Assembly (NCBI GenBank): GCA_013140715.1
Contig: JABFSG010000063.1
Span: 1-55,908 of the forward strand
Source: Nitrospiraceae bacterium
GTDB taxonomy: Bacteria; Nitrospirota; Nitrospiria; Nitrospirales; Nitrospiraceae
Length of the DNA: 55,908 nt
Reading direction: 5' to 3'
A program made the position numbers and the translations under genes. Of the stretch, positions 6,921-42,552 are shown in pieces (within the stretch, counting starts at the first letter, position 1; each line of letters begins with the position of its first letter). The notes beneath the pieces were generated by a model. It saw only the letters and a list, made by a program, of their open reading frames with translations. It had not been told where the DNA came from and did no database searches.

Positions 6921-7640
6921 TTACCAGAATTTCACCGGATCATTGCCTCCTCCCGCAATGACGACGGATCCCCTTCGATGTCTAGAAAAGGAGTCGCGGG
7001 TGAAATAGGCTGCGGCCTGAGCGCGTCGGGTCACTTTCAGCTTCTGAAAGATGAATCGAACATAGTTCTTCACGGTCTTGTCGCTCAGGTCGAGCGAGAG
7101 ACCGATTTCCTTATTCGTTTTCCCCTCAGCCACGAGGGCGAGCACACGCTGCTGCTGCGCGGAGAGAGTCGTCCGTGAGGACTCAGATGCCGCCTCTTTC
7201 TCCAGCCGAATCCGGGTCAACAGGGGCTGCGTAATGGCCGGATCAAGGATCGACTGCCCGGCAGCCACCGCATAAATGGCTTGGGCCAAGGCGTCGGCAT
7301 TCACGTGCTTCAACAGATAGCCGGCCGCTCCCCCGATGACCGCCGCAAGCACCGCTTCATCGTCCTGATAGGAGGTGAGAAAGAGCACCCGCGTCGCGGG
7401 GCAGGAGTCTCGGATAGCGCGGCAGGCGTCCACTCCATTCCCGTCGGGCAAACGGACATCCATTAACACGACATCCGGGTGAAGCCGGCAGGCCGTCTCG
7501 ACAGCCTCCTTGATGCTCGCCCCCTCGCCGACGACCGTGATCCTGTCCTTTCGACTGAGAAGGGCCCGCAACCCCACCCGCGTGACTTCATGGTCGTCCA
7601 CAATCACTATCTTAATCGGTTTCACATCAGAAGCGATCAA
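6921..7640 (-). CDS. LuxR/NarL-type response regulator, copy A
   Basis: 239 residues: a receiver domain (IKIVIVDDHE; acceptor Asp in VVLMDVRLP) joined to a C-terminal LuxR helix-turn-helix (GKTNKEIGLSLDLSDKTVKNYVRFIFQKLKV, read in parts). Translation most likely starts at the TTG at 7640, which has GAAGGG eight bases upstream. It is a near-exact duplicate of the gene at 8055-8747: bases 6991-7621 match 8113-8743 at a constant offset of 1,122 with only a few substitutions. The last 20 residues and the first few are unrelated between copies. No kinase is adjacent, so both copies appear to be orphans. Confidence 0.9.
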   Translation of the reverse strand: MIASDVKPIKIVIVDDHEVTRVGLRALLSRKDRITVVGEGASIKEAVETACRLHPDVVLMDVRLPDGNGVDACRAIRDSCPATRVLFLTSYQDDEAVLAAVIGGAAGYLLKHVNADALAQAIYAVAAGQSILDPAITQPLLTRIRLEKEAASESSRTTLSAQQQRVLALVAEGKTNKEIGLSLDLSDKTVKNYVRFIFQKLKVTRRAQAAAYFTRDSFSRHRRGSVVIAGGGNDPVKFW

Positions 7641-8054: not shown

Positions 8055-8747
8055 TCATCGGTTTTTTATCTTCTCCTGCAAGGGCTGCAGACCCGTCGGA
8101 TACTCCGAAAAAGAGTCGCGGGTGAAATAGGCTGCGGCCTGAGCGCGTCGGGTCACTTTCAGCTTCTGAAAGATGAATCGAACATAGTTCTTCACGGTCT
8201 TGTCGCTCAGGTCGAGCGAGAGACCGATTTCCTTATTCGTTTTCCCCTCAGCCACGAGGGCGAGCACACGCTGCTGCTGCGCGGAGAGAGTCGTCCGTGA
8301 GGACTCAGATGCCGCCTCTTTCTCCAGCCGAATCCGGGTCAACAGGGGCTGCGTAATGGCCGGATCAAGGATCGACTGCCCGGCAGCCACCGCATAAATG
8401 GCTTGGGCCAAGGCGTCGGCATTCACGTGCTTCAACAGATAGCCGGCCGCTCCCCCGATGACCGCCGCAAGCACCGCTTCATCGTCCTGATAGGAGGTGA
8501 GAAAGAGCACCCGCGTCGCGGGGCAGGAGTCTCGGATAGCGCGGCAGGCGTCCACTCCATTCCCGTCGGGCAAACGGACATCCATTAACACGACATCCGG
8601 GTGAAGCCGGCAGGCCGTCTCGACAGCCTCCTTGATGCTCGCCCCCTCGCCGACGACCGTGATCCTGTCCTTTCGACTGAGAAGGGTCCGCAACCCCACC
8701 CGTGTGACTTCATGGTCGTCCACAATTACTATCTTAATCGGTTTCAT
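8055..8747 (-). CDS. LuxR/NarL-type response regulator, copy B
   Basis: 230 residues from the ATG at 8747, where the sequence MKPIKIVIVDDHEVTR begins; an ATG eight codons upstream (8771) is also in frame but lacks a ribosome site. Receiver and LuxR DNA-binding domains match copy A almost residue for residue (one change seen: Ala to Thr in VGLRxLLSRKD). The C-terminus differs (SEYPTGLQPLQEKIKNR). The near identity at silent sites points to a very recent duplication or gene conversion. Both copies keep an intact frame, so both are probably functional, and they should recognise the same DNA sites. Confidence 0.9.
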   Translation of the reverse strand: MKPIKIVIVDDHEVTRVGLRTLLSRKDRITVVGEGASIKEAVETACRLHPDVVLMDVRLPDGNGVDACRAIRDSCPATRVLFLTSYQDDEAVLAAVIGGAAGYLLKHVNADALAQAIYAVAAGQSILDPAITQPLLTRIRLEKEAASESSRTTLSAQQQRVLALVAEGKTNKEIGLSLDLSDKTVKNYVRFIFQKLKVTRRAQAAAYFTRDSFSEYPTGLQPLQEKIKNR

Positions 8748-10451: not shown

Positions 10452-10666
10452 TTAACCCGCATTATTCACGAAGGTTCGCGACGAAACCGGCAAGACGCCA
10501 AGCGAGACGGGTGCGCGGAGGCCAGGGGACTGGCTCCGCCGTCTGCGGCGGTGCCAGTCCCCACCAGTATGCCGACCGAGCGAGGGACAAGCCCACCCGC
10601 CGCCAGGCTTGTTGCAGCGGCATATCGGCGGTTGCCGCAGAAGCCTTCGCGAATGATGCGGGTTAA
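10452..10666. repeat. E2 element, copy a (about 215 bp, inverted ends)
   Basis: The ends are 23-bp inverted repeats with 21 matches (TTAACCCGCATTATTCACG at the left, reading inward). The 10475-10520 stretch, including AGACGCCAAGCGAGACGGG, matches the minus strand of a second copy at 38291-38495. The other end (GTTGCNGNAGNCC) also matches that copy, while the middle of the two copies differs. The middle here holds a strong hairpin (10525-10562). With conserved ends, a variable core and no gene, it resembles a miniature mobile element. Confidence 0.7.
10525..10562. repeat. Strong 17-bp hairpin inside E2a
   Basis: GGGGACTGGCTCCGCCG, a four-base loop (TCTG), then CGGCGGTGCCAGTCCCC. All but one of 17 pairs are canonical. 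No T run follows on either strand, so it is not a standard terminator. Confidence 0.75.
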
Positions 10667-10743
10667 GGTTCCGACACATTCGACCGACAAGAGATTGCAC
10701 CACCCACAGAGAACACCGATCGGCACAGTGGACCAGCAGCACC

Positions 10744-37647: not shown

Positions 37648-38088
37648 CTATAGCCGCTCTTCATCGAGCTCAATGACATCGGCCCATGTCTGAACGGAAG
37701 GGAGAGACGAAAACACTACACCGCGTTTCGTGGCGATGTCTTGCAACCGTCCCCGGAATCGCTGGCATGCCGCATCGTCTTTTGGCCCGGATGACAGAAG
37801 ATCCTGACTCCATTGCGCGATCTCCTGCTCGGATGGTTTTCGACTATTGGCCTTCACCCAGACAAGCAATTCCTCATCTGTTCCACCAGCCAACACCAAC
37901 TGCTCAAACGCTTTCGGATCGATCTGCAGAAAATCGACCAGGTACTTATCGAACCCGACCGTGATGTAGTTGTACTCCTGAATCTTGCCAGCATTCCGTA
38001 ACCGAATCTTGTCGATAAACCGCCCCAAGTGGGCAATGCCGCCGAGGAGTATTTTGGGACTGCGGGGATAAGTTTGCTGCGTCATCAT
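37648..38088 (-). CDS. DUF5069 family protein
   Basis: 146 residues from the ATG at 38088 (GGAG five bases upstream, with an ATG-ATG pair). The family pattern YPRSPKILLGGIAHLGRFID-KIRLRNAGKIQEYNY is plain at the N-terminus; the C-terminus contains WADVIELDEERL. The function of DUF5069 is unknown. Cytosolic. Confidence 0.85.
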   Translation of the reverse strand: MMTQQTYPRSPKILLGGIAHLGRFIDKIRLRNAGKIQEYNYITVGFDKYLVDFLQIDPKAFEQLVLAGGTDEELLVWVKANSRKPSEQEIAQWSQDLLSSGPKDDAACQRFRGRLQDIATKRGVVFSSLPSVQTWADVIELDEERL

Positions 38089-38155
38089 AGTTTCTCCAGA
38101 ATTGTGGCTAGCCAAAACATACAGATGAATGCGAGAGAAGTCTAGAAGGGGTGAC

Positions 38156-38560
38156 GGCCGCTGACATGCCGCCGCTGCTCCCCACCTCCCAGAACGGCCC
38201 TTCCGGGCTTGGCCGAGCGGAAGCCTTCTGGAATTCCCTCAGCTGCGATCACACGATCGCAGTACTTCGGTCAGTTCCAGCTTTCCCAGCGCGCATGATC
38301 CATGAGGGCCTACTGCAACTGTGGACACGCCGCTACGACAAGCCAGTATGCTCATCGTCTACATACTGGCAGGCGGGCTCGCCCCTCTCGACCTCAACGT
38401 ACTGCTTCGAGTACGCCTCGGCCTCTCGGGGCTCCACGCGCCCGTCTCGCTTGGCGTCTCCACAGTTTCGTCACGAGCCCCCATGAATTATGCGCGATGG
38501 CCTCACCTCGGTGGGTCCCCGTTCTTCCGGTGAGGTCGCGCGGCAGCATGCCAGCGCTCG
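38156..38560 (-). repeat. E1 element, copy b, interrupted by E2b
   Basis: On the minus strand both halves match the intact copy at 39791-39983: GGGGACCCACCGAG at 38507-38520 side, then, after the inserted E2b, GGAAAGCTGGAACTGAC and GGAATTCCAGAAGGCTTCC. Its outer ends are imperfect inverted repeats (38156-38175 and 38539-38558, about 15 of 19). The split gives a relative age: E2 entered E1. Confidence 0.8.
38291..38495 (-). repeat. E2 element, copy b (205 bp), nested in E1b
   Basis: Ends GCGCATGATCCATGAGGG (38291-38308) and an inverted relative at 38478-38495 match in 15 of 18. The minus strand shares AGACGCCAAGCGAGACGGG and the end block with E2a (10452-10666). The core holds its own hairpins (CCAGTATGCTC...ACATACTGG and GTACTGCTTCGAGTAC) that E2a lacks, so the core is not conserved. 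Confidence 0.75.
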
Positions 38561-38701
38561 GAGCAATCAACGGCTCGTGAAGTCTTTTCTTTGTTTGAAC
38601 CTATTCTTTGCCGGGTGCCAGTCTTAGCGTACACATTTGCGGGTTTAATGTTGGACCTCAGCGGCCGCCGGAGGCGGTCCGCTGAAAGGAAGGGTTAGCC
38701 A

Positions 38702-39613
38702 TCATTGCGGCAGTGTCCAACCAAGAGTTTCGAAGGTAACTACGCCAGTTCTAGGCAACATCTCATCGGCAAATAGGGTCCACTCAATCAGCGCGGCCTG
38801 GCGAAGTGCGTCTGCTTCCGTCTTGGGAAAGCGAAAGCCAAGCTCTACGACCGACGTGTTCATTCCAGGGTGATACACATTGGTATGGCTACTGAATTGG
38901 CGCGCCTGGATACCTTCATAGAGGCGGTCTATGTTCTGAAGCGTGCCGCTGACATCTTGAATTTGGACCAGTGGTGCAGGGGGAAAACGCATCAAGATGA
39001 CAACTTCGCGCCCGACTCGGCGCCCGACGTTCCGAACGAAAAGACGCATGTGAGAGAGATTCGTCCAGGGAGGCTCTCCATCGTAGGAGGCAGGTGCTGT
39101 CGTGGGCATGAAGACTATATCAAGCACTGGCGAAAGACGACGGCCAAACTTTCGCGCAACGAGATCATGCTCCATGGGCAGGCACTCAATGCCTGACCGT
39201 CGGTAGTAACGCTTGTCATAGAGGCTTTGATGTGGTGGGTCCTGACTCTCAGGGACATCAAGCAAGAGGACTTGTGGATTGATCTCTGGAATCAGCCGCC
39301 TTCTCAATCCAACGATGGGTGGGCGAATCTGAGCATTGATCACACGATCGAGTGTCTCCACCTTCCTGACTTCGATAGGCACAATTTTTTGCGGCAATGT
39401 CTTGTCGGCTGGGTCCGTGGCAACTCCATAGACGATTACACCTCCAAGTGAGTTGGCCATGCCAGTCACATCTTTCGCAATCTCAGCCTTGTCGCGATCG
39501 TTGAACGGAACTTCCGCTGTCTTGTACTCGAGCACTTCGGATTCGCGCGCCCCTTCTGCGACAAGTGATTCGATAGCTGTGAGGCTCGTGAGTTGGTCAA
39601 AGAGATCGGACAT
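38702..39613 (-). CDS. AlbA_2 (Schlafen-type) ATP-binding-domain protein
   Basis: 303 residues. The AlbA_2 domain, about residues 20-160, has the family pattern ESEVLEYKTAEVPFNDRDK, AEIAKDVTGMANSLGGVIVY and GVATDP, then LLLDVPES and HQSLYDKRYYRRSG. The domain occurs in Schlafen proteins, transcription regulators and defence-related proteins, often binding nucleotides or nucleic acid. The second half (170-303) is beta-rich (DGEPPWTNLSHMRLFVRNVG) and unassigned. It stands alone between inverted copies of E1, 142 bases on one side and 178 on the other. This is the clearest sign of an acquired cassette in the window. Confidence 0.8.
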   Translation of the reverse strand: MSDLFDQLTSLTAIESLVAEGARESEVLEYKTAEVPFNDRDKAEIAKDVTGMANSLGGVIVYGVATDPADKTLPQKIVPIEVRKVETLDRVINAQIRPPIVGLRRRLIPEINPQVLLLDVPESQDPPHQSLYDKRYYRRSGIECLPMEHDLVARKFGRRLSPVLDIVFMPTTAPASYDGEPPWTNLSHMRLFVRNVGRRVGREVVILMRFPPAPLVQIQDVSGTLQNIDRLYEGIQARQFSSHTNVYHPGMNTSVVELGFRFPKTEADALRQAALIEWTLFADEMLPRTGVVTFETLGWTLPQ

Positions 39614-39790
39614 AGAGAAGCCACGGGTGGGTGTACAGCTAACTATTAAGTGAGCAGCGGCAAGGATACGGCTACAGACAGCTTCTCCCTGACCGTGCCA
39701 GAACTCTGGTGACTAAAAAGCTGAGAGATCATCCGCATTTCGAGGATCTGTGTCAATGACCGCCCACCAGAATACACTGCCATTCGCATA

Positions 39791-39983
39791 GGTGTGCCAG
39801 GGCTCAGCGCTGACTTTGCCGGAGGAGCGGGGACCCACCGAGACTCAGCCGAGAAGGAAAGCTGGAACTGACTGAGGGACCGCGGTCATCGACCGCAGCC
39901 GAAGGAATTCCAGAAGGCTTCCACTCGGATGAGTCCGGAAGGGTCGCTCCGGGAGGCGAGGAAGCGCTGAGCCTTGGCACACC
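39791..39983 (+). repeat. E1 element, copy a (193 bp, full-length hairpin)
   Basis: The outer 21 bases at each end pair with one mismatch (GGTGTGCCAGGGCTCAGCG reading inward). Pairing continues inside: GGAGCG...ACCC...GACTCA..CCGAG with its partner, CTGGAA with TTCCAG, and GCGGTC-ATC-GACCGC at the tip. In E1b the tip stem is GCGATC with GATCGC, one G-C pair changed to A-T on both sides. So the whole element can fold into one long imperfect hairpin, and the tip shows compensatory change. Confidence 0.8.
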
Positions 39984-41115: not shown

Positions 41116-42552
41116 CTATCGAACGGATAGCGTGGCAGACTTGCCGGCGCGCAGATACTGATCGATCCCCGCCGCCATCTTGCGGCCTTCGGCAATGGCC
41201 CAGACGATGAGGGAGGCGCCACGTTTGGTGTCGCCGCCGGCAAAGACGCCGTCGAGGTTGGTCATGAACTGCTCGTCTACCGACACCGCACCGCGCTGAT
41301 CGTACTTGACGCCGAGACTGTCGAGCAGACCGGTCTTCACGGGGCCGGTGAACCCCATGGCAAGCAGCACCAGATCCGCATCCATTTCGAAATCGCTGTT
41401 TGGGATTGCCGTGAACTTGCCCTTCTCGAACTTCACCCGATTGCCATGAAGCTTCGTCACCTGGCCATTGTGGCCGGTGAACTTCGTGGTTGAAATACTC
41501 CACTGCCGGTCACAACCTTCTTCATGCGCATGCGAGGTACGGAGCTGCATGGGCCAGAGCGGCCAGGGTGTCGAGCCGGCGCGTTGCGGCGACGGCTCCG
41601 GCAAGAGTTCAAACTGATGCGCTTCGATGCAGCCCTGGCGATGAGCCGTGCCTAGACAGTCCGAACCGGTATCGCCGCCGCCGATGATGACGACGCGCTT
41701 GCCCTTGGCCGTAATCGGTTCGTCCGTAACCGTCTCGCCGGCGTTCCGTTTGTTCTGCTGGGTCAGATAGTCCATCGCGAGATGGATGCCCTTGAGTTCT
41801 CGGCCTGGAATCGGCAGCTCACGCGCCTGCTCCGCGCCCAGGGTCAGGCCAACCGCATCGAACTGCTGCCGCAACTGTTCACCTGTGAGGTCTTTTCCAA
41901 TAGAGACGCCGGTCCTGAACTCCACCCCTTCAGCCTTCATCTGTTCCAACCGACGGTCGATGACCCATTTCTCCATTTTAAAATCCGGGATGCCATAACG
42001 CAGTAGGCCGCCGATGCGATCGGACTTCTCAAAGAGCGTGACACTGTGACCGGCGCGCGCCAATTGTTGCGCTGCCGCCATACCGGCCGGACCTGAACCG
42101 ACAATGGCTACCGTCTTGCCCGTCTTCACTGCCGACAACGCCGGTTCGACCAAGCCCTCGCTGAAGCCACGGTCGATGATATTCCACTCGATGATCCTGA
42201 TAGAGACCGGATCTTCGTTGATGCCGAGCACGCAGGCCCCTTCACAGGGGGCCGGACAGAGCCGGCCGGTAAACTCAGGGAAATTGTTTGTCGTATGAAG
42301 CGCCTTGAGTGCATCTTTCCAACGGCCTCGAGAGGTCAGATCGTTCCAGTCAGGAATCAGGTTGACGACCGGACAGCCGGTGTTGCCCTGACAGAAGGGG
42401 ACGCCGCAGTCCATGCAGCGAGCACCTTGCGTCTTGAGCTTCTCCTCGGAGATGGGTTCATACATCTCCTTCCAATCGAGCACACGAAGCTCGACCGGCT
42501 TCCGCTTCGGCCCCTCACGGGCGTATTTCATGAAACCTTTGGGATCACCCAT
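41116..42552 (-). CDS. gltD: Glutamate synthase small subunit
   Basis: 478 residues. It takes electrons from NADPH through FAD and two 4Fe-4S clusters to the large subunit. N-terminal Cys clusters: ARCMDCGVPFC, GCPVVN, LCPAPCEGAC. FAD motif VAIVGSGPAGMAAAQ and NADPH motif VVIIGGGDTGSDCLG. C-terminal GVFAGGDTKRGASLIVWAI is the conserved FAD-binding end. The ATG at 42552 is preceded by an inverted repeat and lies 79 bases after the gltB stop. Confidence 0.95.
   Translation of the reverse strand: MGDPKGFMKYAREGPKRKPVELRVLDWKEMYEPISEEKLKTQGARCMDCGVPFCQGNTGCPVVNLIPDWNDLTSRGRWKDALKALHTTNNFPEFTGRLCPAPCEGACVLGINEDPVSIRIIEWNIIDRGFSEGLVEPALSAVKTGKTVAIVGSGPAGMAAAQQLARAGHSVTLFEKSDRIGGLLRYGIPDFKMEKWVIDRRLEQMKAEGVEFRTGVSIGKDLTGEQLRQQFDAVGLTLGAEQARELPIPGRELKGIHLAMDYLTQQNKRNAGETVTDEPITAKGKRVVIIGGGDTGSDCLGTAHRQGCIEAHQFELLPEPSPQRAGSTPWPLWPMQLRTSHAHEEGCDRQWSISTTKFTGHNGQVTKLHGNRVKFEKGKFTAIPNSDFEMDADLVLLAMGFTGPVKTGLLDSLGVKYDQRGAVSVDEQFMTNLDGVFAGGDTKRGASLIVWAIAEGRKMAAGIDQYLRAGKSATLSVR

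Follow-up and report, generated by a model that had tools for sequence, protein, structure and literature searches.

An AlbA_2 gene between inverted hairpin repeats is probably a cassette of an integrase-less chromosomal integron

Results and discussion

The gltD-DUF5069 interval and its AlbA_2 gene

The window analysed here, the whole stretch of 55,908 nucleotides, lies on a contig that is part of a 3.58-Mb Nitrospiraceae genome (G000), and comparisons were made across 32 genomes of the genus, this one included; judging by gene content, the genus is probably Nitrospira or a close relative. The adjacency of gltD and a DUF5069 gene is kept in the genus, the variable DNA between them ranging from 57 bp to about 4.6 kb, and comparison of these intervals across congeners distinguishes two conserved blocks in the window, one on each side of an AlbA_2 gene (Table 1). 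The product of this gene passes as a member of the SLFN_AlbA_2 family (PF04326; 47.6 bits against a Pfam gathering threshold of 25.3). As a preliminary description of this DNA had reported, inverted copies of a hairpin element (E1b on the minus strand, E1a on the plus strand) flank AlbA_2, which is the only gene between them, and no transposase lies there; the gaps, given in that description as 142 and 178 bases, measure about 138 and 178. The element had also been called full-length, which holds for E1a; E1b is interrupted by a second element, E2. Elsewhere in the window an exact 300-bp direct repeat is found at 6985-7284 and 8107-8406, 1122 bp apart.

Table 1. Features of the gltD-DUF5069 interval, in window coordinates
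Feature	Position	Strand	Remarks
DUF5069 gene	37648..38115	-	PF16798, 152 bits; conserved neighbour on the 3' side of the integron; relatives in 29/32 genomes
E1b, E1 hairpin interrupted by E2	~38156..38563	-	ancestral, outside the cassette
E2 nested in E1b, ends approximate	38288..38505		E1 homology breaks at 38286 and restarts at 38507
Conserved 3' integron flank	38564..38648	-	starts TTAAACCCGCAAATGTG at the crossover; junction alignment covers the window and 10 other genomes
attC of the AlbA_2 cassette	38643..38700	-	R'' GGCTAAC ... R' ATTAAAC; crossover between 38649 and 38648
Whole gene cassette, 994 bp	38649..39642	-	between the two crossover points
AlbA_2 gene (cassette gene)	38702..39613	-	303 aa; SLFN_AlbA_2 domain at residues 24-147
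attI-type insertion site and leader	39643..39787	-	TTGACA promoter-like motif; ends ...CTCACTTAATAG; crossover G^TTAG between 39643 and 39642
E1a, intact E1 hairpin	39791..39983	+	ancestral flank, former intI side
gltD	41116..42552	-	conserved neighbour on the 5' side of the integron interval; tblastn 87-96% in relatives

The view that AlbA_2 is a single-gene mobile cassette is borne out by the comparison: no copy at high identity was found in the other 31 congeners, where the one relative is 31% identical, and other single genes fill the same slot in relatives, among them genes for an AbiU2-HEPN protein, an HNH nuclease and a UvrD-like helicase, a content typical of integrons. For the majority of slot genes there is no Pfam match. 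The closest homologue found among GTDB genomes belongs to another phylum; it is encoded in a Rhizobacter metagenome-assembled genome (61% identity over 267 amino acids), on a contig whose assignment to that organism is provisional because it is short and comes from such an assembly. Here, too, an attC follows the stop codon at the same offset (TGATGGCYAACCC), reading GGCCAACCC...GAGCGTTGTGC. The 31% relative within the genus (G013 C351:12280-13020) has an attC match about 1.1 kb downstream (G013 C351:14109-14172). Carriage of AlbA_2 by a phage or plasmid was considered and rejected: a phage search returned no relatives, a plasmid search only relatives at 39% identity or less, and none was found on viral contigs. 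In PADLOC, which covers anti-phage defence, AlbA_2 had no match at E 0.1.

Junctions of the cassette

A covariance model of attC sites (R2), trained on eight attCs that included the Rhizobacter site and excluded the window, places an attC 1-2 nt past the AlbA_2 stop codon (50.3 bits, E=4.4e-9). It is the only significant match in the 56-kb window, where the next has E=0.46, and the top-scoring attC in the genome; beyond the training set, the model also matches sites behind slot genes in five congeners (G010, G013, G031, G004 and G008). On the opposite side of the gene, the 145 bp of the insertion site and leader are 86-93% identical in seven congeners, and homology stops at the crossover, ending ...CTCACTTAATAG^TTAG in all eight genomes (exactly in five, with 1-2 differences in three). 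Past this point the sequence is unrelated and each species has a gene of its own, separated from the crossover in most of them by no more than a few tens of bases. Homology restarts at ^TTAAACCCGCAAATGTG in eleven genomes, and the hairpin that precedes it is each genome's own, typically GCCTAAC...AACG^, apart from one shared by G026 and G028. An empty site would join attI directly to ^TTAAACCC.

Judged from sequence, the junctions at the insertion site and at the 3' flank are most probably integron crossovers, of attI and attC respectively. The cassette boundaries, G^TTAGCT on the attI side and A^TTAAAC on the 3' side (with G in most relatives), follow the crossover motif G^TTRRRY, with one base deviating. 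The attC of the window has A for G at the crossover base, as does that of G002, and its R''/R' pairing is weak. A blastn search for the attI of the eight intI-less species gave no match in G008 or G015, the two species with intI, so that its role as an attI site rests on its position and on the exactness of the junction.

The integrase and its remnants

Integrases above the NCBIfam cut-off of TIGR02249 (265) are encoded in two congeners, G008 and G015 (464 and 463 bits), in both between gltD and DUF5069, and in none of the other 30 genomes, G000 among them, which thus has no source of recombinase in cis. Canonical attC arrays accompany both (in G008 with sites such as GCCTAACTAATCATTCAAGCCGACGCCTTCGGCGCGGCTTAACTTAGGCGTTAGGC). 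The two integrases have an N-terminal extension before the IntI domain, are encoded on the cassette strand and are 57% identical to each other.

Remnants of the integrase are found in further congeners: G013 has an IntI C-terminal remnant directly upstream of attI, and IntI fragments occur in G018, G026 and G028. Seven congeners (G002, G009, G010, G013, G023, G026 and G031) have the same sequence beside an E1 arm, GTCTGAAACAGTTCCAGAC with small changes, and three of them keep codons of the IntI C-terminus. These seven share one post-integrase junction upstream of attI, yet their cassettes differ. In the window the GTCTGAAACAGTTCCAGAC stretch has been deleted as well, and E1a now stands 3 bp from attI. 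In a tree of gltD, the intI-bearing species fall among the junction-bearing ones, G015 with G002 and G008 with G009/G010.

A common junction upstream of differing cassettes in seven congeners, together with flanks whose conservation on both sides is 83-93% across more than 150 bp, would also be expected if homologous recombination between the flanks (attI leader and E1a at one end of the slot, 3' flank and E1b at the opposite end) swapped the content of the slot with no integrase involved. Such exchange, however, creates no attC behind each gene and cannot bring an AlbA_2-attC unit from another phylum; it explains later shuffling rather than capture. We consider such swapping unlikely, and it could add to the history of the integron instead of replacing it.

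The E1 repeats as older residents of the locus

E1a folds into an imperfect hairpin of 193 nt (-70.6 kcal/mol against -38.1 +/- 3.1 for shuffled sequences, z=-10.4), and E1b is its inverted homologue, with 81% identity over 108 nt. A covariance model built from six copies of the same genome has 50 pairs, 25 of them with compensatory change; it finds nine copies in G000 and matches in 32/32 genomes of the genus (1-17 copies each), and a patchy distribution in other genera of the family. Six elements of about 129 nt in a genome from another family of the phylum (G080; for example G080:C8:8903-9031) have weak but significant scores with this model (42-51 bits). The E2 nested in E1b is related to an element at 10454-10668, which has TTAA at both ends; E2 is a second palindromic family, of about 215 bp, with about 20 related places in the genome, and is nested in or beside E1 at two loci.

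Relatives that hold other cassettes have E1a and E1b in the same positions. Species that lack AlbA_2 (G026, G028, G027, G023, G009, G013, G016 and further ones), whether they hold another cassette or no cassette, have a conserved E1b upstream of DUF5069, and the interruption of E1b by E2 is common to the window, G028, G026, G027, G023 and G009. The outer arm of E1a occurs at the same place upstream of attI in all seven junction-sharing congeners, and in G008 an E1 that is 85.6% identical to E1a lies in the same orientation about 210 bp upstream of intI. E1a and E1b therefore predate AlbA_2: both are old residents that flank the integron, and the gene arrived between them by another route.

This contradicts the reading, suggested in the preliminary description, of the inverted E1 copies as the ends of a composite transposon, here one of MITE type that carried AlbA_2 with a transposase acting in trans. 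Gene capture between MITEs has precedents in mobile insertion cassettes and integron mobilization units, and inverted E1 pairs about 0.2-1.4 kb apart do occur in other congeners, four of them enclosing a gene, as that description had proposed to look for, and one of about 220 bp enclosing none. The boundaries of the AlbA_2 cassette, however, are set inward of the E1 copies by 85-148 bp and coincide with the attC and attI crossovers, and the outer arms of E1, of about 20 nt, vary freely among copies while remaining self-complementary, with no terminal sequence in common. Nor do genes for Y1 transposases co-occur with E1 (18/32 genomes against 32/32), which also led us to reject RAYT/Y1 transposases as mobilisers of the element. 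Inspection by eye revealed no target-site duplication in the E1 flanks, and at sites that might have been empty of E1 other palindromes take its position, with no clean target duplication. Two observations had been named in advance as counting against a mobile cassette, E1 copies elsewhere unconnected with gene gain and the same gene order in all relatives, and neither fits cleanly: most other E1 copies are found behind conserved genes, and gene order is kept among relatives outside the slot only. Outward-pointing pairs are, moreover, to be expected where two convergent genes each carry an E1, because the element often lies behind opposite-strand stop codons; this location alone yields such pairs. 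Transposition of AlbA_2 between E1 ends is extremely improbable.

Slightly less so, but still very improbable, is an earlier event in which inverted E1 copies flanking a complete intI-attI-cassette block moved it once as a unit. E1 copies bracket the entire integron in G008, and E1 lies beside a second attC array in the same genome and near an attC in G019; against this, the block stands between gltD and DUF5069 in all the species examined, a copy with both E1 ends was not seen at any other locus, and no target duplications were identified. The second array of G008 (C16, about 5.0-8.8 kb) comprises about five attC sites with E1 at its 3' end, and the attC of G019 is at C19 5285-5347; E1 and cassette arrays may have become associated more than once.

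A probable integron without its integrase

Because of the attI and attC junctions, the intI genes of relatives, the attC behind the Rhizobacter homologue and the greater age of the E1 copies, we conclude, with a probability of roughly 95%, that AlbA_2 belongs, as a gene cassette, to a sedentary chromosomal integron in the gltD-DUF5069 interval, which in this genome is without intI. By this mechanism cassettes would enter as circles, through site-specific recombination between the folded attC hairpin and attI catalysed by the tyrosine recombinase IntI, and AlbA_2 was presumably inserted by that enzyme. An intI gene was probably once present at the locus of the window and then deleted, rather than never having been there. 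The cassette may now be locked, given the A in place of G at the crossover base and the weak pairing of the R boxes, or would move only with an integrase supplied in trans. That a gene lies between inverted repeats does not mean that they moved it.

The locus may have passed through a single loss of intI with later loading in trans, through repeated loss, or through recombinational exchange of the locus. We suggest only tentatively, and with more doubt than belief, that attI was orphaned in a common ancestor when its own integrase was lost, and that it continues to receive cassettes; if so, either integrases passing through serve it in trans, or populations exchange cassettes through homologous recombination between the conserved flanks. 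The shared junction with its differing cassettes makes the question of whether an orphan attI can still be filled directly testable.

The locus resembles the sedentary chromosomal integrons of Vibrio, Xanthomonas and Treponema in its attI-type site, in cassettes that each end in a folded attC, in the IntI proteins above cut-off in two relatives, in cassettes that vary by species and in defence- or toxin-antitoxin-like content. It differs from them in that the array is very short (one cassette) with no intI in this genome, that several species keep attI next to an intI-loss junction which they have in common and that intI lies on the same strand as the cassettes. Loss of an integron within a genus has been described in Treponema (PMC3607928), where, as here, a genus-ancestral integron was later lost and cassettes are lineage-specific; here, by contrast, the landing site outlives the integrase. 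Two clusters of attC sites lacking integrases (CALIN) have been reported in Ca. Nitrospira inopinata (PMC9024848), a member of the same or a close genus, and likewise combine attC cassettes with the absence of intI; unlike a CALIN, the window keeps an attI-type site and has a single attC. IntegronFinder 2.0 requires two attC sites by default (PMC9024848) and so skips the slot in the window, its lone attC being below that minimum; it is comparison with neighbours that reveals such an intI-less, single-cassette slot. Complete integrases in two species at a shared ancestral locus place a chromosomal integron in a nitrite-oxidiser-like genus for which PMC9024848 listed two CALIN only. No account of complete integrons in Nitrospira was found in the literature searched, from which subscription journals were mostly absent, and this is hence no proof of novelty.

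Palindromes at gene ends

E1 resembles ERIC, REP and BIME palindromes in being an imperfect intergenic palindrome, often behind stop codons, that tolerates nested insertions; it is unlike them in its length of about 195 bp, its conserved apical core and its outer arms, which change freely yet stay paired. In 20 of the 45 copies inspected, with genes called by codon usage, no more than 100 nt separate the 3' end of E1 from the stop codon of a gene on the opposite strand; on the 5' side this is so in none. These counts argued against the idea that E1 is a 5' leader of genes, which was rejected; an identity as an Rfam RNA was likewise rejected, there being no match at gathering score and the best chance matches having E>1. 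No published E1 family was found in the literature searched.

Downstream of ychF, G002 and G019 both have inverted E1 pairs in which the ychF-side copy has identical arms; one pair encloses about 220 bp without a gene and the other an AT-rich gene for a 196-aa product. Behind ahcY and behind a ferredoxin-like gene, some species have E1 directly after the stop codon, and others have different palindromes or ordinary terminators in that position. The same stop codon is thus backed in different species by different palindrome families (E1; ACGGGGTAGCCTGGCCGTCCCC...; ...GGGACATTTTCAGCATTCCTGC) or by plain terminators, and some of the repeats provide the stop codon themselves; this turnover of palindromes at gene ends has the look of a system of its own.
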